Source: Lachnospiraceae bacterium A4
Lineage (GTDB): Bacteria; Bacillota; Clostridia; Lachnospirales; Lachnospiraceae
Direction of reading: 5' to 3'
DNA: 64,000 nucleotides
Assembly (NCBI GenBank): GCA_000403215.2
Contig: KE159527.1
Coordinates: forward strand, 580,141 to 644,140
This document shows, in pieces, positions 20,789 through 39,130 of the stretch. Under the pieces are notes generated by a model. That model saw nothing but the letters and a program-made list of their open reading frames with translations, was not told where the DNA came from and searched no databases. Position 1 is the stretch's first letter; every line of letters begins with the position of its first letter. The translations under genes were made by a program, and so were the position numbers.

Positions 20789-21739
20789 TTATCTATCCGG
20801 CAAAAAATATACATTTACATTCCTGATCCAATAATCTGTATTAATTATTTTTGACAACTTAAAATTGCTGTTTTTTTTAACATTAACATGACAAAATGTT
20901 CCTGCATAAATTAGAACAATTTCCCTTTTTTTTCTATCATGACTTTCCTGAATATTCTGAATTACTTTATCAAAAGTCTTTCCTTCAAAAGAATTTTGAA
21001 TAAAAAAATAGTTATAATCATCCAATTCCCATGTTACTAAAGACGCATCTTTTTTTATTAGTCCATTTATATCAAATCCAAACTTTTTCAAATTATTACA
21101 TGCAATCTGAAATAATTCCGGATCATATTCTACGCCTCCAAATTTGCAAATACCCCTCCCTATTCTTGTTGTGAATAAAGGGAATATATTTCCTTTTCCG
21201 CTTCCGAAGTCAAAAAATGCATCATTTGCATTAAACTCAAAATTATCCAATACATCTATAAGCGGATAATCCATACCTGCTGCATAATTTCTACTGTCAT
21301 CATTAGGTTTAATAATTTCATTACCACCTTTCGCGTTAATAATATCTACATCATATTTATACTCCAACCAATCATAGTAAGATAAGTTTCTTTTCGTATT
21401 GTCACCATAAAACAGCTTTCTTAAAAATATAAAATTCTTTCCTTCAATATAACCTAAACCTTCCAAAAAACTTTTTACCTTCTTATCTTCTTCAAAAGTC
21501 AATAAAACAGCAACTGTTTCTTTATCCATCTCTCTTAGAATAAATGATCAAGAAAGATGCAGTTTAAAACTTATAGTGCAACTATCATCTATTATGCATT
21601 CAATCTGTTTGTTATTTCTTTTAAATAGATGCTCTATAAACCAACCGCTTCTTTCATATCCCCATAGTACCACTTGCTTGCCATTTACAAATCGAAACAT
21701 TCTATCTACCGTATTTTCAAACTCCGTCCAAATCCCCAT
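20789..21739 (-). pseudogene. Paralogue of the preceding gene, interrupted by an in-frame TGA
   Basis: Two ORFs (21739-21548 and 21529-20789) match, end to end, the N- and C-terminal parts of the neighbouring methyltransferase-like protein. The first gives MGIWTEF, KQVVLWGYERSGWFIEHLF and CIIDDS, then stops at a TGA (21550-21548). The second resumes with TVAVLLTFEEDKKV and has DAFFDFGSGKGNIFPLF, FGGVEYDPEL and DDYNYFFIQNSFEG. The TGA and the downstream ATG are in the same frame, separated by six codons, so this is a nonsense change rather than a frameshift. The second part could restart at the ATG at 21529, which has a weak GAGAG upstream. Without readthrough the full-length protein is not made. 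Confidence 0.75.
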
Positions 21740-21741
21740 AT

Positions 21742-22455
21742 CTATCCCCTTTTCATAGCTTCCCAAAATATTTTTCTTGATACTTTAATCCCATTATTAA
21801 ATAACAGATCCAATGCCGACAATCCTGGTACAAATGAATGATTTCCTATTTGGGCATATACTGGATGCCGAAAATCCTGAAATTTTACATGGATACCTTC
21901 TTTTTCACATTCCTCAGTACTTAAGTACTGCATACTGGCACCTCTTCCAGCATAATAGGTATCGGCACCAACTGCTTTGCAGAGCCCTAATATGAGCTGC
22001 CCTTTTTTCAGACTGTTGTCAATTTCTATATCACTTTGCAAAATTAATGGTGTTTCTATCCCAAATAGCTCTCTTAATATGTTTAGGCTATGTACAGTAA
22101 CGTCACAAAGATATTCATGTTCCTCTCTAAAAATAGGGGCTATCGTATTCCATACCTCATCAAACCACTGACACTTTTTGTATGCACTAATAAGAATGCC
22201 TTTCTGCCTATTTGTCCATACTTCGAAGTCCTTTATTTCAATATTCCTATATTCCTGACAAAAATGATTCTTCTTTTCACAGGAAATATTCAAATATCTT
22301 ATCTCTCCATCCGGATCAATTATCCTGTTCCGAAGCATATATGATCTTTTCTCAAGTTGAACTGTATCCATCAAAATGAATTTATCCACACTCGCCATTT
22401 TTGCCAGATATCCCAGCCACGGAAAATAATGAGGCTGATGAATTGCCACCATCAT
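21742..22455 (-). CDS. WbqC-like family protein
   Basis: The start MMVAIHQPHYFPWLGYLAKM is the hallmark of the WbqC family, followed by DKFILMDTVQLEKRSYMLRN, ADTYYAGRGASMQYL and YAQIGNHSFVPGLSALDLLFN. WbqC-like proteins occur in O-antigen and capsule loci, usually near aminotransferases, and are thought to take part in amino-sugar decoration; the reaction is not established. A second WbqC gene lies at 40746-41453. It overlaps the upstream deacetylase-like gene by four bases and the broken methyltransferase downstream almost abuts it. Confidence 0.82.
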   Translation of the reverse strand: MMVAIHQPHYFPWLGYLAKMASVDKFILMDTVQLEKRSYMLRNRIIDPDGEIRYLNISCEKKNHFCQEYRNIEIKDFEVWTNRQKGILISAYKKCQWFDEVWNTIAPIFREEHEYLCDVTVHSLNILRELFGIETPLILQSDIEIDNSLKKGQLILGLCKAVGADTYYAGRGASMQYLSTEECEKEGIHVKFQDFRHPVYAQIGNHSFVPGLSALDLLFNNGIKVSRKIFWEAMKRG

Positions 22456-24391: not shown

Positions 24392-24910
24392 CTAAAATGT
24401 CATTATTTCAAATCTCTCGATTATGTTTCCTTTTTCGTCAACCCTACCGTATTTTCTGGCTGGCACTCCCACTGCTAAACAAAAATCTGGAATATCTTTT
24501 GTTACAACACTCCCTGCCGCTACCATGGCATATTTACCTATCGTAACTCCGCAAATAATTGTTGCATTCGCACCTATGCTGGCACCTTCCTTAATCAAAG
24601 TGGGACGATAATTCTGCTTTCCCTTAGGATATTCCGCCCTTGGGGTTAGATCATTTGTAAACACACAAGATGGCCCTAAAAATACCTTATTTTCTATAGT
24701 AACTCCTTCGTACACGGATACATTATTCTGAATCTTTACACCATTCCCTATCTTCACATTATTGGAAATATTTACATTCTGTCCCAAAGAACATTTTTCA
24801 CCTATTGTTGCCCCTGATTGTATGTGACAGAAATGCCATATTTTAGTACCCTCGCCAATGTGAACATCATCATCAACATAACTGCTCTCATGTATGAAAT
24901 ATGACATCAT
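24392..24910 (-). CDS. Left-handed beta-helix N-acetyltransferase (WbpD/WlbB-like)
   Basis: The protein is built of hexapeptide repeats (IGEGTKI, IGEKCSL, IGNGVKI, IENKVFL, IGANATI, IGKYAMV), with a C-terminal PDFCLAVGVPARKYGRVDE that is typical of the WbpD/WlbB/PglD-type sugar N-acetyltransferases. These transfer acetyl from acetyl-CoA to an amino group of a UDP-sugar. The start overlaps the stop of the oxidoreductase gene, and the aminotransferase that would supply its substrate follows. The length of 172 residues is slightly shorter than WbpD of Pseudomonas. Confidence 0.83.
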   Translation of the reverse strand: MMSYFIHESSYVDDDVHIGEGTKIWHFCHIQSGATIGEKCSLGQNVNISNNVKIGNGVKIQNNVSVYEGVTIENKVFLGPSCVFTNDLTPRAEYPKGKQNYRPTLIKEGASIGANATIICGVTIGKYAMVAAGSVVTKDIPDFCLAVGVPARKYGRVDEKGNIIERFEIMTF

Positions 24911-25977
24911 TGAAACCTTCCTTCAAAATCCATTGTTGCACACTCTTTCAATGGTAGCTTGACACTGCATCCCTCCGCTGCCGACTTATATATTGCCAAA
25001 ACAAGCTCCAATGCTTTTTTTCCATCCATAGCTGTTACATATGGCTGCCTGTCCTGTTGTATGGCATTAATCACATCCGCATATAATGGTGTATGTCCAT
25101 ATCCATATACATTGGGGGGATTCTCATGGAATCTTTCCTTCACTGTGTCAGGATCGTCAAGCATATCAGAAAACCTCCACTCCTCTATCACATTCACTGA
25201 CTGTCCACCTGCTTTAACAGTACCTTTCTCACCAAATATATATAAGGTTTCTTCCAGATTCTTAGGATATATATCTGTAGTACCCTCAATGATTCCATAG
25301 CTTCCATTTTTAAATTTAATAAGCGCAATTCCCATATCCTCCGCTTCTATGTAACTATGATTAAGCCTGTCCGTCATCCCCACAACTTCATCAATCTCAC
25401 TGCCCATCATCCAGCGCAAAAGATCGATATTATGGATACACTGATTCATTAGAGCACCGCCGTCCTGTGCCCATGTTCCTCTCCATGATGCTCTATCAAA
25501 ATACTCATGATCTCTACACCACCTAATATGTGCCGTACCGTAAAACAACCTACCAAACCGATTCATATCTATCGCTTCTCTTATAATTTGAACTGATTTA
25601 TTAAACCTGTTTTGATGACATGCGCATACTTTGACATGATGTTTTATTGATGCCGATATAATATCATCCGCATCAGATATAGACAACGCAATTGGCTTCT
25701 CTATGATACAGTTGCATTTGTGTTCTATACAAAATAGAGCAATTTCTGCATGCTTTCCACTTTCTGTACAGATTGACACAAGTTCTGGTTTTTCTATTTC
25801 AATCATTTCCTTATAATCTGTGTAATGTTTTGTATTTTTATCAAGTTTGAATTTAAGTATCTTATCTTCCATACTTAATAGATTAATATCACATATTGCA
25901 ACAATATCAAGACCGTTATTTTTTGCTGCCACAATGTGATTGGGAGATATCCTTCCACAACCAATCAGCGCATATCT
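24907..25977 (-). CDS. Gfo/Idh/MocA-family sugar oxidoreductase
   Basis: The N-terminal Rossmann domain begins MRYALIGCGRISPNH, with PELVSICTESGKHAEIA and the family motif CNCIIEKPIAL (the EKP lysine). The C-terminal domain has QDGGALMNQCIHNIDLLRWMMG, with the substrate-binding histidine and aspartate. The frame is open to 26043, but the ATG at 25977 with AGGAG upstream fits both homology and the truncated copy at 26343-26753. In the context of acetyltransferase and aminotransferase genes it is probably the 3-dehydrogenase of a diacetamido-hexuronate pathway (WbpB-like role); this is inference. Confidence 0.83.
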   Translation of the reverse strand, partial: RYALIGCGRISPNHIVAAKNNGLDIVAICDINLLSMEDKILKFKLDKNTKHYTDYKEMIEIEKPELVSICTESGKHAEIALFCIEHKCNCIIEKPIALSISDADDIISASIKHHVKVCACHQNRFNKSVQIIREAIDMNRFGRLFYGTAHIRWCRDHEYFDRASWRGTWAQDGGALMNQCIHNIDLLRWMMGSEIDEVVGMTDRLNHSYIEAEDMGIALIKFKNGSYGIIEGTTDIYPKNLEETLYIFGEKGTVKAGGQSVNVIEEWRFSDMLDDPDTVKERFHENPPNVYGYGHTPLYADVINAIQQDRQPYVTAMDGKKALELVLAIYKSAAEGCSVKLPLKECATMDFEGRFQ

Positions 25978-26342
25978 CATAAACTTCACAACTCCTCTAT
26001 TTACCCCACTTCTTCTATTAATTTCGCATACGGATATATTCAAATTATCATTTCTTAAATCTTTAATCCCATATTCCCCATTACTTACTTACATTTTTCA
26101 TACTTTGATTTAATACATAATTATAGAACTGTCTTTGAATCTTGCCACTTTCATAGGATGCATGTTCATTGTTATTTAATTACAATATTACATATACATT
26201 TCTTCCCCAATGTATACATCATCCCTTAGCATTTGAATAAAACTCGCTCTTGTCATATTGTTATTCAATTACTAACAGAATTCAAATACATTATCGCAAA
26301 ATTCCCACCATTTCTTATTTCAGTGAATTGCTTTGATATGCA
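25978..26342 (-). other. AT-rich spacer between intact and truncated oxidoreductase copies
   Basis: There is no convincing gene on either strand. It separates an intact oxidoreductase gene from a truncated copy of its own 5' part, so it most likely marks the scar of a duplication or recombination. No terminal inverted repeats or transposase remnant were recognised. It is one of the few long gaps in an otherwise tightly packed operon. Confidence 0.5.
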
Positions 26343-26753
26343 TTAGTACTTCTTTGACGGCAAAATATAAAAAATGATAAGTTCTCTTTGTACTCCTTCT
26401 AATAAACTGTCATTTTTTATTGATGTAGCAATAATTGCATCGGCGTCCGCTATGGACAATGCAATTGGCTTCTCTATAATGCAGTTGCATCCATGCTCTA
26501 TACAAAACAATGCGATTTCTGCATGTTTTCCGCTTTCTGTACAGATTGCAACGAGTTCTGGCGTTTCGGTTATTATCATTTCTGTATAGTCTGTATACTG
26601 CTTCACCGTGCTGCCTAATTTAAATTTCAGCATTTTATCTGCCATACAGGATACTTCGGTATCACAGATTGCTGTAAGTTCCAGCCCGTTATTCCGCGCT
26701 GCGGCAATATGGTTTGGCGAGATGCGTCCACAGCCAATAAGTGCATATTTCAT
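26343..26753 (-). pseudogene. Truncated copy of the Gfo/Idh/MocA oxidoreductase (N-terminal third)
   Basis: The first 113 or so residues are nearly identical in sequence to the start of the intact oxidoreductase at 24907-25977 (KYALIGCGRISPNH, CTESGKHAEIALFCIEHG, CIIEKPIALSIADAD). After TSIK the frame diverges into about 22 unrelated residues and stops. The catalytic C-terminal domain is absent, so enzymatic activity is not expected. A good ribosome binding site (GGAG) and ATG remain. The nucleotide sequence here is more GC-rich in synonymous positions than the intact copy, suggesting the two were acquired separately or have drifted. Confidence 0.75.
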
Positions 26754-28010: not shown

Positions 28011-29019
28011 TTAAACTTCTTTGACCCCTGTTTCTAAATGTACATTATAGGTATAGAGTGGTGCATTTTTTTGATATTTACGTTCATAAATAAGAAAATC
28101 AAATTCCTGAATTCGGTTTTTGGGAATATATATACCACAAACATTATTATTTGTTACATATACATTATCAAAATCTTTCCCTAGTGCATCATATACTGCC
28201 TTGATGACTTCTGCTCTATATTCATTTTGCCCTAGCTTAAAATCATGCCATACAACAATAGACTGTTCTTTCCGGTTTGAAAAAATATTTTTAGTATCAC
28301 TATATACTCCTTGATAACTGTGATCACCATCTATAAAATAGAGATCTACTGAATCAGCATGTTTCGAAAAATCAAACACCTTAGAGTCAGTATAATAATG
28401 TATTATCTTTTCATTATGCGAAAGTCTACCTTGGTAATCTGCATTTTTTGACTGCACAAAATAATTCTCCAAGCTCTCTTCGGGCAATGTTACACTATAA
28501 AGCTTATTACAGCAGTCAGTTAGTATATTAATACTTTCACCTATGTAAGTTCCAACTTCCATATATTCTTTGGAACCACTTATTAGAGCAATCTGTTTTA
28601 AAAACATATAATCCAATACACCAGATCCGCCTGCAATAAACGTCAACTCTTTTAAATTCAGTTTTCCCTGCTGATGCAGCCATGCCCCCAAATTAATTGT
28701 TCTTTTATCCAGCATATCCTCTATTTCACTAGGCAGTACTGTTTCTAAACCCATTTTAAAAACCACTATATCAGAATTAGTAATTCCCATATTCTTCATA
28801 TCTTCCAACATTTCCCTATACCAAATGCTGGCCACTATAATTGTAACATTTGAATATTCTGTTAATACTTGAGGTTCACAAACTTTTACCCCCCCCCCCG
28901 TACTTTTTAATTTCTGCTGCCTTCTTATCTACAAAAAACAAAATATCATATTGATTCTTAAAATGTTCATAAACAAACTTTCCAATATTTCCACAACCAT
29001 ATATAATTGCCTTTTTCAT
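28011..29019 (-). CDS. Phase-variable methyltransferase with N-terminal Rossmann-like module (out of frame here)
   Basis: A gene starts at the ATG at 29019 (GGAGG upstream) with MKKAIIYGCGNIGKFVYEHF and LFFVDKKAAEIKKYGGG, the start of the recurrent module. It then meets a run of 11 G, and the frame ends four codons later at 28876-28878. In the other frame, directly after the run, the module continues (VKVCEPQ, YSNVTIIVASIWYREMLEDM) into a class I methyltransferase (YMEVGTYIGESI motif I, VDLYFIDGDHSYQGV). One G fewer, or two more, would join both parts into about 335 residues. In this copy the full protein is therefore switched off. The downstream part could only start at a GTG at 28835 without a ribosome binding site. 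Confidence 0.85.
28889..28899 (-). repeat. Poly-G tract of 11 (coding strand), probable phase-variation switch
   Basis: Eleven consecutive C on the plus strand, G on the coding strand, lie inside the module-methyltransferase gene in an otherwise AT-rich context. Upstream the frame reads TAC then G; downstream it requires GTA AAA GTT. Full-length translation needs 3k+1 G residues (10 or 13). Eleven is one too many. Runs of this length are prone to slipped-strand mispairing. Confidence 0.85.
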
Positions 29020-29036
29020 CTTTTCCCTCCTTCAAA

Positions 29037-30083
29037 TTAGTCATTAAATATCTTATTCCATGCTTTTATTCTTGGTTCTATTCTTAATAACGCTTCTATC
29101 ATGCGCCCATTATTTTTCTTAGATATATCAGAAAAACTTATAAAGTCTTCATACTCCATCTTGGAAATCTCATTTATTGTACAAATATCACAATGTTTTT
29201 CATTTCTAAAATAATGTACTAATACCGATCTGTCTCTCAAATATATTTTTTTACCAAAATATAACAATGTTTGTATATTTCCCATTGCCTGTTGCCTGTT
29301 CATTGCAAAAATACCAATATCCATATGTTTTAAAAATTGATCATATTCGTCTTCACAAAGGTACTCAGTTAATGCAATTAACTTTTCACCAAATATCTTT
29401 TTTCCTTCCTTTATTACTCTTTGTGCATAATTCTTATTTCCATACGATAATGGTACATATACTTTTATGGACTCATCTTTAAACTTAGACAATAAATGAA
29501 AAATTTGTATATGTTTATTCGTAAATGTAGCGGAGTGTCCAACTTGTATAGCTATATAATCCTTTTCCACTTGCTTTTGTTCTTTAATACTCTTCATTAA
29601 TCCGTAATCAGCATAATATTTTGCACAAAAAAATTTGCCTTTAGGATGATAATATTTCTGCATATACCCTTTTTCTTCTGGAAGAATATTGATTATCCCG
29701 TGTGCATTTCTTATCACATATTTCTTTTTTAAATTATTCCATTTATTGTTTTGAATATAAAATTTATCTCCACCCCAAAAATATAAGTACAATCTTTTTA
29801 AAAGTTTTCTCTCTTTTGCAAAAAAGTTAATAATTTCCTGTTCAAAAACTCCGTGATAAATTATTTTATCAAAATCATATACCTTTTTTGTCCTCAATTT
29901 TTCAATTATATTCCTGACATATTTTACATTCTTGAATGAATGCAAATCTAATTTTGTTTCAGCGTTAATTCTTGAACCATATATCCAAAATTCATGATAA
30001 TTATTACTAAAATTTTCATTCATAAACTTTATGTTATCGTTTGCAAACTTTCCAAGCCGAAATAAATGCAGTATTTTGTACAT
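29037..30083 (-). CDS. WecF-like (TDP-Fuc4NAc:lipid II transferase family) glycosyltransferase
   Basis: The pattern matches the WecF/GT56 family: MYKILHLFRLGKFANDNIKF at the start, LYLYFWGGDKFY, IQVGHSATFTNKHIQ, VYVPLSYGNKNYAQRVIKEG, IFAMNRQQAMGN and LLYFGKKIYL. WecF adds N-acetylfucosamine in enterobacterial common antigen synthesis; in Gram-positives relatives belong to capsule loci with unknown donors. The frame opens at 30113, but AAGGA about eight bases before the ATG at 30083 marks the start. It follows the adenylation gene without a gap. Confidence 0.75.
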   Translation of the reverse strand: MYKILHLFRLGKFANDNIKFMNENFSNNYHEFWIYGSRINAETKLDLHSFKNVKYVRNIIEKLRTKKVYDFDKIIYHGVFEQEIINFFAKERKLLKRLYLYFWGGDKFYIQNNKWNNLKKKYVIRNAHGIINILPEEKGYMQKYYHPKGKFFCAKYYADYGLMKSIKEQKQVEKDYIAIQVGHSATFTNKHIQIFHLLSKFKDESIKVYVPLSYGNKNYAQRVIKEGKKIFGEKLIALTEYLCEDEYDQFLKHMDIGIFAMNRQQAMGNIQTLLYFGKKIYLRDRSVLVHYFRNEKHCDICTINEISKMEYEDFISFSDISKKNNGRMIEALLRIEPRIKAWNKIFND

Positions 30084-30113
30084 CCCGTTTGTCCTTCCAT
30101 TAAAATAGAGCAT

Positions 30114-32664: not shown

Positions 32665-33731
32665 CATGCCACCCACTTTCCAATACTACGATAACCCATA
32701 TCAATACAGGCCGGGTGTGAAGAATAATTCCTATTCTTCATACCCCCCCCTAGTATATCATTGGCAGCTTTCTGTATAGACTGGTTCAGAAACTCATACA
32801 TAGAAATATCCAATTTTTCTCTAGCCTCCTGTGCAAGCCTTTTCGTTTCAGGACTTACCCCCTCCAGTTTCCCGTAATATCTAGTGCGGAGTGTACCCCC
32901 TCTTTTTCCTGGTATATCAAAATCAAAATCTGCGTCAGGTTCTCCTTCGCCTACTTCAAATTCCATGCAGTAAACCACACCATGCAGGATCCAGCTCAGA
33001 TTAACATTTCTCGCCTCAACAGGGATGTCTTCCAAGCTGAAGTTATTCATATAATGCTTATTGTAATCAATCAGAATCCTTCCAAATTCCGTATCATAAA
33101 GCCATGGGGCAAGCCCACGTCCGGCAATGACCACCCTTGCTCCCGGTTTTGTGACCCTTATGATTTCTTTCATCTGCGCTTTCACATCGGAATACAGGCT
33201 CATCCCCACCCCCCCATAGCTATATATCGCATCGAAATATTGATCCGGATAAGGAAGTGCTTCGGCATTACTTTGTGTAATGATAACCTGTCCACTTTTA
33301 AACTTGTTTTTTAATACCTTTAACATATCCAAAGAAATATCCTGAACATGAAACTCCGATCCCTCTGCAATTCTTTTCTTGATCAGCACAGAATCTCTTC
33401 CTGTCCCCGCACTCAATTCCAGTACCCGAATTCCCTTCTTTCCATCAATATGAAGCTTATCTATGATACTGTTCCGCACATCATCCTCATTGCTCTTAAA
33501 CAGTTTATATGTAAGATAGTGGTAATCATCATACTCCCCAGACTCTTTGGCAAATAAACTAATTGCATATTCATTTCTGTCTTTGTCTGTAATCTTTGTA
33601 AGATTCGGAATACCGTCATTTACATCGTATTCTTTACCTGACATATTTGTAAGAGATCCATTTTCACTCAATATGAGCTTTTCTTTTGTTTCTGGATCTC
33701 TCCAATTTTTCACCACTTCACTGTTTAACAT
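32664..33731 (-). CDS. SAM methyltransferase with two poly-G tracts
   Basis: The N-terminal 45 residues resemble a Trm112/Trm2-like segment (WRDPETKEKLILSENGSL, DVNDGIPNL). The methyltransferase core follows: RVLELSAGTGRDSVLI (motif I), FHVQDISLDMLKVL, ITQSNAEALPYPDQYFDAIY and MKEIIRVTKPGARVVIAG. A run of 7 G encodes part of SYGGVGMS in the core, and a run of 8 G encodes LGGGM about 25 codons before the stop. With 7 G at the second run the frame would end immediately (GTA TGA); with 9 it would end four codons on. Both runs are in frame here. GGAGG precedes the ATG at 33731. Confidence 0.78.
   Translation of the reverse strand: MLNSEVVKNWRDPETKEKLILSENGSLTNMSGKEYDVNDGIPNLTKITDKDRNEYAISLFAKESGEYDDYHYLTYKLFKSNEDDVRNSIIDKLHIDGKKGIRVLELSAGTGRDSVLIKKRIAEGSEFHVQDISLDMLKVLKNKFKSGQVIITQSNAEALPYPDQYFDAIYSYGGVGMSLYSDVKAQMKEIIRVTKPGARVVIAGRGLAPWLYDTEFGRILIDYNKHYMNNFSLEDIPVEARNVNLSWILHGVVYCMEFEVGEGEPDADFDFDIPGKRGGTLRTRYYGKLEGVSPETKRLAQEAREKLDISMYEFLNQSIQKAANDILGGGMKNRNYSSHPACIDMGYRSIGKWVA
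32743..32750 (-). repeat. Poly-G tract of 8 near the 3' end of the methyltransferase
   Basis: Eight C on the plus strand, in a gene end that is otherwise AT-rich. In the present length the frame continues for 25 codons and overlaps the start of the following beta-propeller gene. Any single-base change ends translation within about four codons, which would also uncouple the downstream start. Confidence 0.6.
33209..33215 (-). repeat. Poly-G tract of 7 in the methyltransferase core
   Basis: Seven C on the plus strand followed after one base by four more C. It encodes glycines directly after the acidic loop of the SAM-binding core. In frame at the present length; a slip would destroy the enzyme. 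Confidence 0.45.
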
Positions 33732-35444: not shown

Positions 35445-36212
35445 CTATATCTTTTCTATATTATAATAATCATAAATGCCTATCGTCTCCGCCCCAGTTG
35501 CTTTTGCCACCGCAATGGATGCAGCATTGTTTTCGTATATATCTTCCGAAACCAGCATATGCTGACCACCACACTTTTGTATAAATGCCTTGGTCAAAGC
35601 CTTCGCAAGTCCCTGTCCTCTGAACTGTTCCTTAACAAAGATATCTTTTTCGCAGACTCCGAATGCCTCCCCAGCAGAATAGACAATTCCCATCATTTCC
35701 CCATCGGCAGAATATGCCGCCAGGAGATTTGCCCTTTTCAGGACATCATCCGCACTATTATAATATCTGTGTGCCAGATCCAACCCAAAGGCATCTTGCT
35801 CAATCTCATCTTTTGTCATCTCCCTTATTTTATAGGCGCTGTCATTAGCCATTTCATCCGCTGCTTCTGCCGTCTCTCTATGGATCATATGAATCCGCTG
35901 GCTTTTCGCAGCAAACGGCCGGGAATCCAGATAGTTCCGCATATATTTTCCCGGATTGTACATCCGGAGCTTTATCCGACCATTACTTTCGATATATGGC
36001 TTAACCACATGCTCAAAAAAAGCTTCATCGTACTCTTCATATGCTTCCTGACAAAATCCAAATTTATTTACTATAAAAGCATGGGTTGGCTTAGTATCAT
36101 CATTCGTTAAAATATTTCCTTCCATGTTCTGCTCGATTACGCTGACAATAAGTGGAAACCACAGTTTCTCTATTGTAAACAATGCTCTCAGTTTAGTTTG
36201 TTTTACCCCCCC
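35445..36212 (-). pseudogene. GNAT-type acetyltransferase portion, cut off from its upstream half by an IS
   Basis: The C-terminal 130 or so residues are a GNAT acetyltransferase: MGIVYSAGEAF, CEKDIFVKEQFRGQGLAKAL (acetyl-CoA loop) and NNAASIAVAKATGAETIGIY. Before it lies a domain of about 100 residues of unknown type. The frame continues without a start into the poly-G run and then into IS sequence up to 36365. Removing the IS joins it to the formyltransferase gene (38299-39130) through the same poly-G run, so it was probably the second half of a formyltransferase-GNAT fusion. A start inside the IS end, or at an ATG near 36125 that lacks a ribosome binding site, might still give protein. Confidence 0.65.
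36206..36212 (-). repeat. Poly-G tract of 7 at the left flank of the IS
   Basis: Seven C on the plus strand directly outside the left IS end; four more C (38302-38305) flank the right end. On the coding strand the right side reads AAAGTACGGGG and the left side GGGGGGGTAAAA. This is the same context as the 11-G switch at 28889-28899, so the IS appears to have entered a poly-G tract. Confidence 0.65.
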
Positions 36213-36217
36213 GCAGG

Positions 36218-36231
36218 CTGTCCGAAAACCC
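36218..36231. repeat. IS1182 terminal inverted repeat (left)
   Basis: CTGTCCGAAAACCC, matched in inverted orientation at 38285-38298. Confidence 0.85.
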
Positions 36232-36351
36232 ACAATTTTTGGCCATTTTGGGCACAAAAAATGCCAGGTTTTTCGGACATTATTTGTCCGTTTATAGTTA
36301 CCTGACCTCGAAAACTGAATAAAATACGCTTTTTTGTTGTTATTTTTCCCA

Positions 36352-38088
36352 TTATGCTGCAACAAGTGCCATCAGTTCTTCAAATGAGAACATGTTACAC
36401 GCCCTGGACAGGTTATATCCCATGGCCATGAGCGCAAATTCCCCACCTACTTTCTGTTTACCCTTTAACAGAAAGCAGGCTGCTCCCATTGCTCGTTTTA
36501 TTGTTCCAAACGGATGCTCTGAAATACACATCCGCTGGTTCATTTTTTCCCTGTCCGGCCTGAGTTTAAACCTGACTACCTTTTTCTTTTCAAAATGGTA
36601 CTTTGCCTTCTTCTGGTTCTTTTTTCCTGGTTTCTCTGTTTCTTCTTCTGAGTTTTCCGCTTCTTCCGGTTTCCACCACTTTGCTTTCTTTTCCAGGCTG
36701 TCTTTGCCAAAATCCGTTTCCTTCCAGTTCGTGTTTCCCTTCCCGTTCACACACTTATCACGGTATGGGCATCCCTTGCACGCCTGCCTGTTGGCATATC
36801 TTGTCGCCCCATTTTTTTTGATGCTTTTTCTCCTGAGGATTTCCCCTCCGGGACAGTAAACCAGATCCCTTTCCGGATCCCTGACAAAATACCCTTCCCC
36901 TGCACGGTTTTTCATTTCCTCTTCTGTTCCATAGGGGCTCTCCACTTTTTGTTCCGGCCCGTCCGAAACTTTTCTCCTTACCTCTGCTACCTCCATACCT
37001 TCTATTACATCCGCATATGCTTCCGGCACCACTCCCGCATGAAGACATCTCTTCAGTTCTTCTGCATTCGTGCCTGCTGTATTTAACTCCCCTGCTTCCT
37101 CATACTCGATCTCCAGTTCATATGTGTCCTGTCCGTCTGGCAGAATGACATTAGGAATAATTCCTTTCTCAAGACATAACACCATATCTTCGGCCTGTTC
37201 GTATCCCTTATCTGCCACAGCTTCAATAATCCTGTCCCCGGCTTCCTGTTTAATGGACTCCGCTGTCGGAGCAATTAATCCATGGTCTGTTGCCTGGTTT
37301 GTCGCCAGGTAATCCATGATCAGGTGCGTCTCTGAATCCACTGCTGTCTGGACATTGTACGACACGTCCATTCCATTTTTATTTTTCATCAGCCGCGCAT
37401 CTGCATCTGTCAGTGAAATCTGCGTGTGGTTTTCTTTCTCCATCAGTTCCCTGTATGAACGGTATTTCTCCAGTCTTTCCTCTGCCTCCTTCAGTTTTGC
37501 TTCCAGTTCTTCCCTGGTCAGCGTTCCACTGGCAGCCTCCTCCTCTTTATCCGCTTCCTCTATCAGCCGCAGGTATTCCTGTGTGTGGTCTTCCAGCCAC
37601 TTTATCCTGTCATCCAGTTTCATAATGGTAAAATTGCTGTCTTTTCCATTCCAGGCTTTAAACTTACTCCCATCTATAGACACGTATCCTGTTTCCAGAT
37701 CTACGGTTACCCTTTTTAGAAATTCCTTAAATACTTCCTTTAAATTGTCTGCATTGTCTTTCCTGAAATCAGATATCGTGCGGAAGTCAGGACGGAGTCC
37801 GCCAAGCATCCACATAACTTCAATGTTTGTGACGCATGCCGCCTCAAGTTTTCTGGATGACCGGATGTTATTGCGGTATCCGTATAGATATAGTTTCAGC
37901 ATACTCTGCGGATCATAACATGGCCTTCCTTCAAAACTTGGTTCTGTTTTTTCGAATCCCATCTCTTTTAAGTCTATGTGATCCACAAAACAATCGATTA
38001 CTCTTGCAATACTATCCCATTCCACCATGGAATCAAGTGTATTTATTACCGCCTGGTTTCTATTGATAGGTTTTACTATATATGGCAT
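36352..38088 (-). CDS. IS1182-family DDE transposase
   Basis: The N-terminal region (FEGRPCYDPQSMLKLYLYGY, then GGLRPDFRTISDFRKDN) is the DUF772-type domain of IS1182 and IS5-like transposases. The catalytic part includes YNVQTAVDSETHLIMDY with a DDE aspartate, VADKGYEQAEDM with the second, and a C-terminal ERDLVYCPGG / CKGCPYRDKC cysteine cluster followed by HPFGTIKRAMGA with the final glutamate region. The frame is complete at about 578 residues, so the element may be active. A GTG at 38097 and an ATG at 38088 are possible starts; GGGGTG six bases before favours the ATG. Confidence 0.88.
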   Translation of the reverse strand: MPYIVKPINRNQAVINTLDSMVEWDSIARVIDCFVDHIDLKEMGFEKTEPSFEGRPCYDPQSMLKLYLYGYRNNIRSSRKLEAACVTNIEVMWMLGGLRPDFRTISDFRKDNADNLKEVFKEFLKRVTVDLETGYVSIDGSKFKAWNGKDSNFTIMKLDDRIKWLEDHTQEYLRLIEEADKEEEAASGTLTREELEAKLKEAEERLEKYRSYRELMEKENHTQISLTDADARLMKNKNGMDVSYNVQTAVDSETHLIMDYLATNQATDHGLIAPTAESIKQEAGDRIIEAVADKGYEQAEDMVLCLEKGIIPNVILPDGQDTYELEIEYEEAGELNTAGTNAEELKRCLHAGVVPEAYADVIEGMEVAEVRRKVSDGPEQKVESPYGTEEEMKNRAGEGYFVRDPERDLVYCPGGEILRRKSIKKNGATRYANRQACKGCPYRDKCVNGKGNTNWKETDFGKDSLEKKAKWWKPEEAENSEEETEKPGKKNQKKAKYHFEKKKVVRFKLRPDREKMNQRMCISEHPFGTIKRAMGAACFLLKGKQKVGGEFALMAMGYNLSRACNMFSFEELMALVAA

Positions 38089-38230
38089 GGAAAACACCCC
38101 GCTAAACTGGAACTTTTAAGATACTCCCATTATACCAGATATTGGTGGAAAAGTCCCACATATTTGTTTATTTAGCGTACTTTATTCAGTTTTCAAGGTG
38201 CATTTATAAAAATCGCTCTGTAAGCGTTTT

Positions 38231-39130
38231 TTAGCTCTGTTTGGGCGATAATCCTACGTTTAAAATCCTGTTATCGCCTCTCAGGGGTTTTCGGACAGTC
38301 TCCCCGTACTTTATAGTGAACTTTAACAATTCGTTATAAATATTTTTGACAACCACTCGATCTTCATACTGCAACAGAATTTTTCCCCATGGAGATTTGC
38401 CATACTGTTCCTTTATATAAGGATTCTGCAGGCATACCACATCGCTGCAAGAAAAAATCCTGTCTTCCACACAAATTCTTGCACCTTTATTTCCAGTAGA
38501 AAAAGCCTTTACCTTTGATGCAATACTCACAGCCGTATCTTCACCCAAATCAATATCCATATCCGTCGGTTGATATGAATAATAAATATCAGTATCGCGC
38601 AAAATCTGTTTCCGTACTGGCAGAAACCGCTTATCATAAGCCGCCTCAAACGCGTCCGCCTCTGCCCTGAAAGACAGCTGATACAAAAGTCCAGCATCCA
38701 GATCGTCAGAATAGGGAATCTCTACCTGTGCTATAATATCGCCGCTGTCGATCCCCTTATTCATCAGATGGCATGTGGCGCCCGAATCTCTTCTATATAA
38801 GATCGCACCCGGAACCGGATCCCTGCCTCTTAAATCAGGCAATAAAGAAGGATGAATGTTCACAAATTTTTTTCGATTACAAAAAATCTCTTCTGGAAGG
38901 ATTACCGGCAGACCATTGCTGATAAAAAAATCAAAATCTGTTGTCTTTATATCCTCCAAAAACTTTCCTCGAACCCCTATTACAGAGTATTCAAGTTCCT
39001 CTTTATCCAGATAACGTTCAAGATAGGATCCCCTGACTGCCCATATCTTCACTATATTAAGCCCTAGCTCCCGCATTCGCTGCAAAACAAACGCCCTGTT
39101 GCCAGCAAAGGCATATTTTTTATTTTCCAT
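38231..39130 (-). pseudogene. Sugar N-formyltransferase-like gene, 3' part replaced by IS sequence
   Basis: The protein carries the formyltransferase signature VNIHPSLLPDLRG, with asparagine and histidine of the catalytic triad, and CHLMNKGIDSGDIIAQ with the aspartate, as in methionyl-tRNA and sugar formyltransferases such as the Qui3N/Qui4N enzymes. The N-terminus (YAFAGNRAFVLQRMRELG) lacks the usual tRNA-enzyme start. Native sequence ends at IKYG near 38302; the last 23 codons come from the IS end. The core catalytic domain is thus intact and may still work, but the following GNAT domain is lost. It starts directly after the SDR gene. Confidence 0.75.
38285..38298. repeat. IS1182 terminal inverted repeat (right)
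   Basis: GGGTTTTCGGACAG, the exact reverse complement of 36218-36231. Confidence 0.85.

Follow-up and report, generated by a model that had tools for sequence, protein, structure and literature searches.

A probable poly-G phase-variation switch in a predicted glycan methyltransferase gene of Lachnospiraceae bacterium A4, one of a set of G tracts

Why should a gene with a well-formed start lose its reading frame at a run of eleven G, with the rest of the enzyme encoded in another frame directly behind the run? This is the question raised by one locus in a 64,000-nucleotide stretch of DNA (the window) from Lachnospiraceae bacterium A4 (contig KE159527.1, positions 580,141 to 644,140), a member of a large family of gut commensals. 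From comparison of sequences we consider it highly likely that the run is a slipped-strand poly-G phase-variation switch in a gene for glycan methylation, and one of a set of such switches. Phase variation had already been suggested in a first-pass annotation of the DNA, and it gains support from three sides: related genomes differ in tract length (11 versus 10 G), the part of the gene that is out of frame is conserved, and there is a genome-wide set of comparable tracts.

The layout of the gene (Table 1) is the one that the annotation had described. Behind a GGAGG ribosome-binding site, the frame opened by ATG 29019 enters the tract after 40 codons and, with 11 G, is closed by a TGA after 47 codons, while the frame 3' of the tract is open for 291 codons and encodes a methyltransferase that matches Pfam PF13578 (Methyltransf_24) with 39.3 bits against a cut-off of 26.3. 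When tract lengths from 8 to 14 were translated in silico, read-through was obtained only at 10 (335 aa) and 13 (336 aa), in agreement with the single protein of about 335 residues expected for these two lengths, and a tract change of one unit puts the gene in or out of frame. Under the proposed mechanism, a G would be gained or lost at replication, by slippage, and the reading frame would move with it: 11 G would be the OFF state, which leaves a stub of 47 aa, 10 or 13 G would be the ON states, and switching would be reversible. The ON forms with three or four glycines should both work, because the tract encodes glycines in a loop that is variable among relatives.

Table 1. Coordinates of the features discussed, in positions of the window
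Feature	Position	Strand	Remarks
G7, right remnant of second tract split by the IS	36206..36212	(-)	
IS1182-family element, 2087 bp	36215..38301	(-)	NF033551, 275.9 bits against cut-off 270
GGGG, left remnant of split tract, end of formyltransferase frame	38302..38305	(-)	
G8 near 3' end of another methyltransferase gene	32743..32750	(-)	candidate second switch, weak
Upstream glycosyltransferase (Glyco_transf_56 / Fuc4NAc-transferase-like)	29037..30113	(-)	PF07429, 59 bits against 25
Ribosome-binding site GGAGG	29026..29030	(-)	from sequence
ATG start of methyltransferase gene	29017-29019	(-)	from sequence
5' part of gene, residues 1-40, start of N-terminal Rossmann module	28900..29019	(-)	
G11 tract (putative switch)	28889..28899	(-)	11 G breaks the frame; 10 or 13 G keeps it open
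TGA closing the out-of-frame product	28876..28878	(-)	47 codons after ATG
3' part of gene, other frame: rest of module and class I SAM methyltransferase (Methyltransf_24)	28011..28888	(-)	
Downstream gene, 404 aa	26770..27984	(-)	no Pfam match

An important aspect of this reading is what the intact enzyme would do. It would have two domains, a class I O-methyltransferase preceded by a Rossmann module of a type that occurs in sugar-nucleotide enzymes, perhaps that of PglD and NeuD. The short 5' piece (residues 1-40) has by itself no match in Pfam. In the intact orthologue described below, the N-terminal module comes close to PglD_N (20.2 bits, below the cut-off of 23.4, E 9e-4), and a sequence search of the PDB ties it weakly to 3nkl (E 0.001). 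A first structure model, built from 5 sequences, was poor (pLDDT 62.6); in this low-confidence model the module resembled VioB (7txp) by Foldseek (E 0.06, probability 1.00, 79 columns, rmsd 2.1), and its methyltransferase matches were replaced by those of a second model. The latter, made for the intact orthologue from 9 sequences (mean pLDDT 83), has a small Rossmann-like module at about residues 1-86 followed by a methyltransferase domain. The matches listed for it concern the methyltransferase domain, among them TrmR (5zw3_B; Z 15.3, 172 residues aligned, rmsd 3.9, VIA-align 2), SafC (Z 15.1) and the sugar enzymes SpnH and MycF (both Z 13.8). The modelled fold is thus of the O-methyltransferase type, and its structural relatives and the neighbouring genes point to methylation of a sugar of a surface glycan as the most likely activity.

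The gene directly upstream is a glycosyltransferase, which NCBIfam models of the WecF type match below cut-off, and it is likely to be co-transcribed with the methyltransferase gene; it may add a sugar to the same surface glycan on which the switchable enzyme would methylate a sugar. A glycosyltransferase adjoins the methyltransferase also in the relatives L074 and, at 26% identity, L203; it was not found in the flanks examined of L075, L076, L077, L078, L079 and L083/L172. The downstream gene has relatives that adjoin the methyltransferase gene in L074 and L077 and, in part, in L075. A further methyltransferase gene of the window has a run of 8 G close to its 3' end (32743-32750); the related genome G029 has 7 G there, a difference that changes the C-terminus. 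Elsewhere in the window, a paralogue with the same combination of module and methyltransferase (20789-21766) contains a single in-frame TGA, which is not at a homopolymer, and the stretch 26343-26753 appears by eye to repeat, in truncated form, the gene at 24907-26043, which is oxidoreductase-like.

The evidence that bears most directly on the tract comes from its orthologue. Relatives of the methyltransferase were collected in one scan of species genomes, of a kind that detects close relatives only; there were seven. The nearest (L074, on CAMWXE010000001.1) is 90% identical and belongs to G029, an uncultured Lachnospiraceae MAG that represents a sister species in the genus of the window genome; its protein also exceeds the Methyltransf_24 cut-off of 26.3 (36.0 bits). 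Start, ribosome-binding site and tract position are as in the window, and its tract has 10 G in a single open frame of 336 codons. The comparison of tract lengths that the first-pass annotation had proposed therefore yields 11 G out of frame against 10 G in frame, in one relative, and its concern that the tract might be fixed at 11 in all strains is not borne out by this one orthologue. A tract at the same site is known from this relative only, which is both another species-level genome and a MAG. Around the locus, the two genomes form a mosaic of DNA that is 75-98% identical.

In the 235 codons that directly follow the tract, the window and the orthologue differ with dS 0.14 and dN 0.02, giving a dN/dS of 0.14, from which we infer that the out-of-frame part has been maintained as a protein during most of the divergence of the two. 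The ratio is 0.24 over all 292 codons behind the tract, where the end is perhaps misaligned, and 0.29 before the tract, a value from 5 changes. In more distant relatives that lack the tract, a single frame encodes both domains (L075, L076, L079, L083, L203). L077, from E. plexicaudatum ASF492, has no tract, and its frame is broken in mid-gene at a place without a G run of at least 7; L078, from a Selenomonadaceae genome, has a G13 tract at another place in the same gene, where it is out of frame. The gene is rare in Lachnospiraceae: at E 1e-20 it was found in 2 of the 397 genomes of the family sample, including the window's own. Within the genus, the protein was matched in 17 of 38 genomes at E 0.001, and the matches beyond the window genome, G029 and G002 cover the module only.

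Is the run longer than chance would allow? In dinucleotide shuffles of the window, matches to eight G averaged 1.03 (sd 1.41, largest 8), and the 5 overlapping matches observed were reached in 3 of 100 shuffles; by this test the G11 run alone is only mildly improbable. In 120 kb from 20 fixed points of the genome, G/C runs of 5, 6, 7 and at least 8 numbered 66, 8, 1 and 0, and in the whole genome of 6.96 Mb there are 43 runs of at least 7, namely 36 of 7-8 and 7 of at least 9, with 4 of 10 or 11. A null based on the decay of run counts with length predicts 0.9 (ratio 0.12) to 1.8 (ratio 0.15) runs of at least 9, against 7 observed, and 0.1-0.3 of at least 10, against 4 observed (P 5e-6 to 2e-4). 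If the ratio is set generously at 0.20, the expectations rise to 4.6 (P 0.19) and 0.9 (P 0.015), and with a null drawn from the 36 runs of 7-8 they are 1.5-2.4 (P 9e-4 to 0.012) and 0.3-0.6 (P 3e-4 to 3e-3), respectively. Runs of at least 10 are therefore in excess under every ratio tried, and runs of at least 9 under the stricter ratios only. This null is stronger than the shuffle test but depends on the ratio, and a single run by itself is modest evidence.

Runs of at least 9 number 7 in the window genome (G9 to G11) and 12 in G029, and both frame states occur in each. In the window genome, they lie in the present gene (G11, OFF), an MBOAT acyltransferase gene (G9, OFF), a methyltransferase gene with the module behind (G10, ON), a gene for the module and a hexapeptide acetyltransferase (G9, ON), a Big_2/GH16 surface protein gene (G10, OFF), a GT2 glycosyltransferase gene (G11, C on the coding strand, ON) and an HsdS gene (Pfam Methylase_S; G9, next to an IS). 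The twelve tracts of G029 are in frame in 7 cases and out of frame in 5 by a mechanical rule, and the genes concerned encode methyltransferases (including the present one and one of TylF type), a formyltransferase/GNAT pair, a pyruvyl transferase, a sugar transferase, a PMT-like protein, a GDSL protein and one protein without Pfam match. One G029 tract, a G10 at L143 2615-2624, stands just before a small gene that by eye looks helix-turn-helix-like and another that looks integrase-like; it lies outside glycan genes and might switch a mobile element. Being 'ON' by the mechanical rule, it is kept among the 69 coding and 38 in-frame tracts counted below.

By our own assignment, 16 of the 19 tracts of the two genomes fall in glycan or surface genes, 13 of the 19 with a Pfam match above cut-off; the matches below cut-off among the 16 are the hexapeptide protein, PMT_2 and one methyltransferase. 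Among 20 control genes at fixed points, 2 or 3 could be counted as glycan or surface genes (GDSL, GH53, Big_4), the control table giving families rather than proteins, and none matched a glycosyltransferase or a methyltransferase. Fisher's test gives P 3e-6 for 16 of 19 against 2 of 20, 2e-5 against 3 of 20, and 1e-3 when only the 13 are counted. The E threshold was 0.001 for the controls and 0.01 for the tract genes, the weakest match counted having E 6e-4. With a set of such switches in one genome, the cells of a population would differ in their combination of glycan decorations, with many combinations present, and a benefit may be found, for example, in the evasion of phage or immunity. The MBOAT tract recurs at the same site in another species, G023, where the DNA is 88% identical; this recurrence counts in favour of a set of switches. 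It is again G9 and out of frame there, and the same length and state in both species is by itself no sign of switching. The MBOAT relatives L236 and L237 (60% identical) have no G run of at least 8 in the stretch examined, and for the tract-bearing methyltransferase L159 one relative besides itself was found, 47% identical and likewise free of such a run.

Tracts of this kind extend well beyond the two genomes. Runs of at least 9, not all of them in genes, occur in 32 of 38 genomes of the genus and in 253 of 397 of the family, the remaining 144 having none, and the counts per genome vary widely, many genomes having 0 and some 20-40. Extreme cases are G187, with 126 such runs in 1.6 Mb, and G041, a Selenomonadaceae MAG, with 88 in 2.4 Mb. 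We looked closer at 83 tracts from 10 genomes, which are all tracts of some genomes and part of those of others: the mechanical rule classes 69 as coding, of which 38 are in frame and 31 out of frame. Lengths of 9, 10, 11, 12 and 13 were found 33, 23, 7, 4 and 2 times in the ten genomes. Of the 16 tracts of E. plexicaudatum (G040), 7 were judged coding, and for the other 9 a place inside a gene is not evident.

The runs also share a flank signature. Within the genus, TA stands directly behind 36 of 48 coding tracts; in wider regions it follows 69% of 62 runs of at least 9 and 86% of 7 runs of 7-8. For shorter runs the share is 7% at length 4 (1007 runs), 7% at length 5 (209 runs) and 10% at length 6 (29 runs). 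A C precedes 56% of the runs of at least 9, against 27, 29 and 14% for runs of 4, 5 and 6. For a Fisher test of the TA, the background counts were reconstructed from rounded fractions. Codon preference was discarded as the source of the TA, whose frequency is similar whichever codon phase it takes in the frame downstream (13/15, 11/16 and 10/14). Selection for a stop codon was also discarded, as TAT (31) outnumbers TAA (13) among 74 coding tracts; TAG is absent from the twelve commonest triplets listed for these tracts. In nine other sets of Lachnospiraceae the TA is weaker and uneven, from 4/16 to 6/9, with 2/2 in the smallest. G041 has different flanks: C precedes the run in 78%, C (80%) and then A (74%) follow it, TA follows 1 of 46 tracts, and 40 of the 46 are 11-13 long. 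The signature is thus C-Gn-TA in the window's own genus and C-Gn-CA in G041, at the level of DNA and independent of the reading frame. That slippage itself depends on the flanks, and so leaves the signature, is a plain guess.

Three other explanations of the out-of-frame gene have to be weighed against switching. Homopolymers are error-prone in assemblies, and the true tract might have 10 G, as in the relative G029, with the gene intact. We hold such a sequencing or assembly error to be improbable: a one-base error explains neither the tract nor the other G9 to G11 tracts in glycan genes with their common flank signature, and an intact G10 gene would still likely be a switch, caught ON. Even less probable is that the gene is a decaying pseudogene, a lost gene with a frameshift. 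It is indeed out of frame, the nearby paralogue has an in-frame stop at 21548-21550, and the homologue L077, whose frame breaks without any tract, indicates that broken copies arise without a switch. On the other hand, no stop has appeared in the 291 codons behind the tract, the same tract is in frame in G029, and the dN/dS of 0.14 over 235 codons led us to reject the pseudogene reading.

The last explanation places the slippage in expression rather than in the DNA, with a ribosome or RNA polymerase slipping on the run; some fused protein would then be produced at all times, and the length of the tract would be of little consequence. Slippage is a known property of long homopolymers, and transcriptional slippage on poly-A tracts is described for Buchnera (PMC2831843). 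Against it, relatives that are in frame exist both with and without the tract, and the 38 tracts in frame and 31 out of frame, among the 69 coding ones, fit a mixture of DNA states, with which slippage in expression is still compatible; we give this explanation as slight a chance as decay. Phase variation by change of tract length accordingly remains our preferred reading of the locus.

How does such a switch compare with known systems? In Campylobacter jejuni, capsule and LOS methyltransferases are phase-variable by poly-G, and several poly-G loci are found per genome. An example from this species is cgtB, in which a poly-G tract of 8 or 9 G switches the gene by one-base changes (PMC6437147). 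The present locus is similar in having a G tract in the coding frame of a glycan-modifying gene; it differs in belonging to another phylum, in the fusion of a Rossmann module with a methyltransferase, and in being a putative switch, recognised from sequence. The presence of G/C tracts in several genes is also reminiscent of the contingency loci of Helicobacter pylori, which is named in a survey of 99 genomes as the sole species with all four homopolymers over-represented, poly-G being reported there as generally under-represented (PMC2831843). In gut bacteria such as Bacteroides and Clostridioides difficile, random on/off expression is described for invertible promoters (PMC11868660); unlike the tracts considered here, these use DNA inversion by a recombinase and not tract length.

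Among the matches listed from the open-licence literature we recognised no paper describing phase variation by repeat tracts in Lachnospiraceae or gut Firmicutes, in line with the first-pass annotation's impression that the mechanism had not been described in Lachnospiraceae glycan loci. A survey of long repeats in 378 genomes by Mrazek, named in PMC11868660, could include relatives. The mechanism is known in kind; the taxon, the enzyme and the scale appear to be new. If switching were confirmed, work on phage resistance, immune recognition and strain typing of these bacteria would have to allow for a surface sugar coat that changes fast and at random; metagenome reads that already exist would permit a direct test.

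The G runs of this genome are also where a mobile element is found. The insertion sequence in the window sits between GGGG on one side and GC followed by G7 on the other (Table 1); at the same site, G029 has an unbroken G11 between the formyltransferase and GNAT frames, which are out of frame with each other. The element belongs to the IS1182 family, its transposase passing the family model NF033551, and has terminal inverted repeats with the ends AGRCTGTCCGAAAACC, found as 12 paired copies in the window genome. All 12 lie within G-rich runs, with at least 4 G on the left in 11, and one of the genome's seven runs of at least 9 adjoins an IS. Exact ends were found in 1 of the 38 genus genomes, the window's own. 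A transposase search at E 1e-120 found at least 7 copies in 4 other genera, with transposases 57-68% identical; as no more than 3 candidates were scored in any genome, further copies may exist. All 7 of these copies, as examined, are in G-rich runs too, and it is in this location, seen for 19 of 19 IS1182-family copies, that the element differs. No paper describing an IS with a G-run target was recognised among the matches listed from the open-licence literature. The bases behind the G runs at the IS sites are mixed, which gives no support to a derivation of the flank signature from the IS target.

In a more far-reaching view, the tracts with their lineage-specific signature would be more than runs that grew by chance: some specialised activity that recognises a site of its own, for example a polymerase, a nuclease, a methylase or a mobile element, would make, resize or protect them, and a subfamily of IS1182 would have specialised in landing in G runs, laying a slow silencing over a fast switch; we regard this combination as unlikely, albeit less so than the alternatives to switching discussed above. 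Finally, the HsdS gene of the window genome (L162 3014-4099, G000 contig C8) contains, beside the junction of its G9 with the IS, two ACAG arrays of about 24 copies with a stretch of N between them, so that this genome probably has repeat switches of a second kind.
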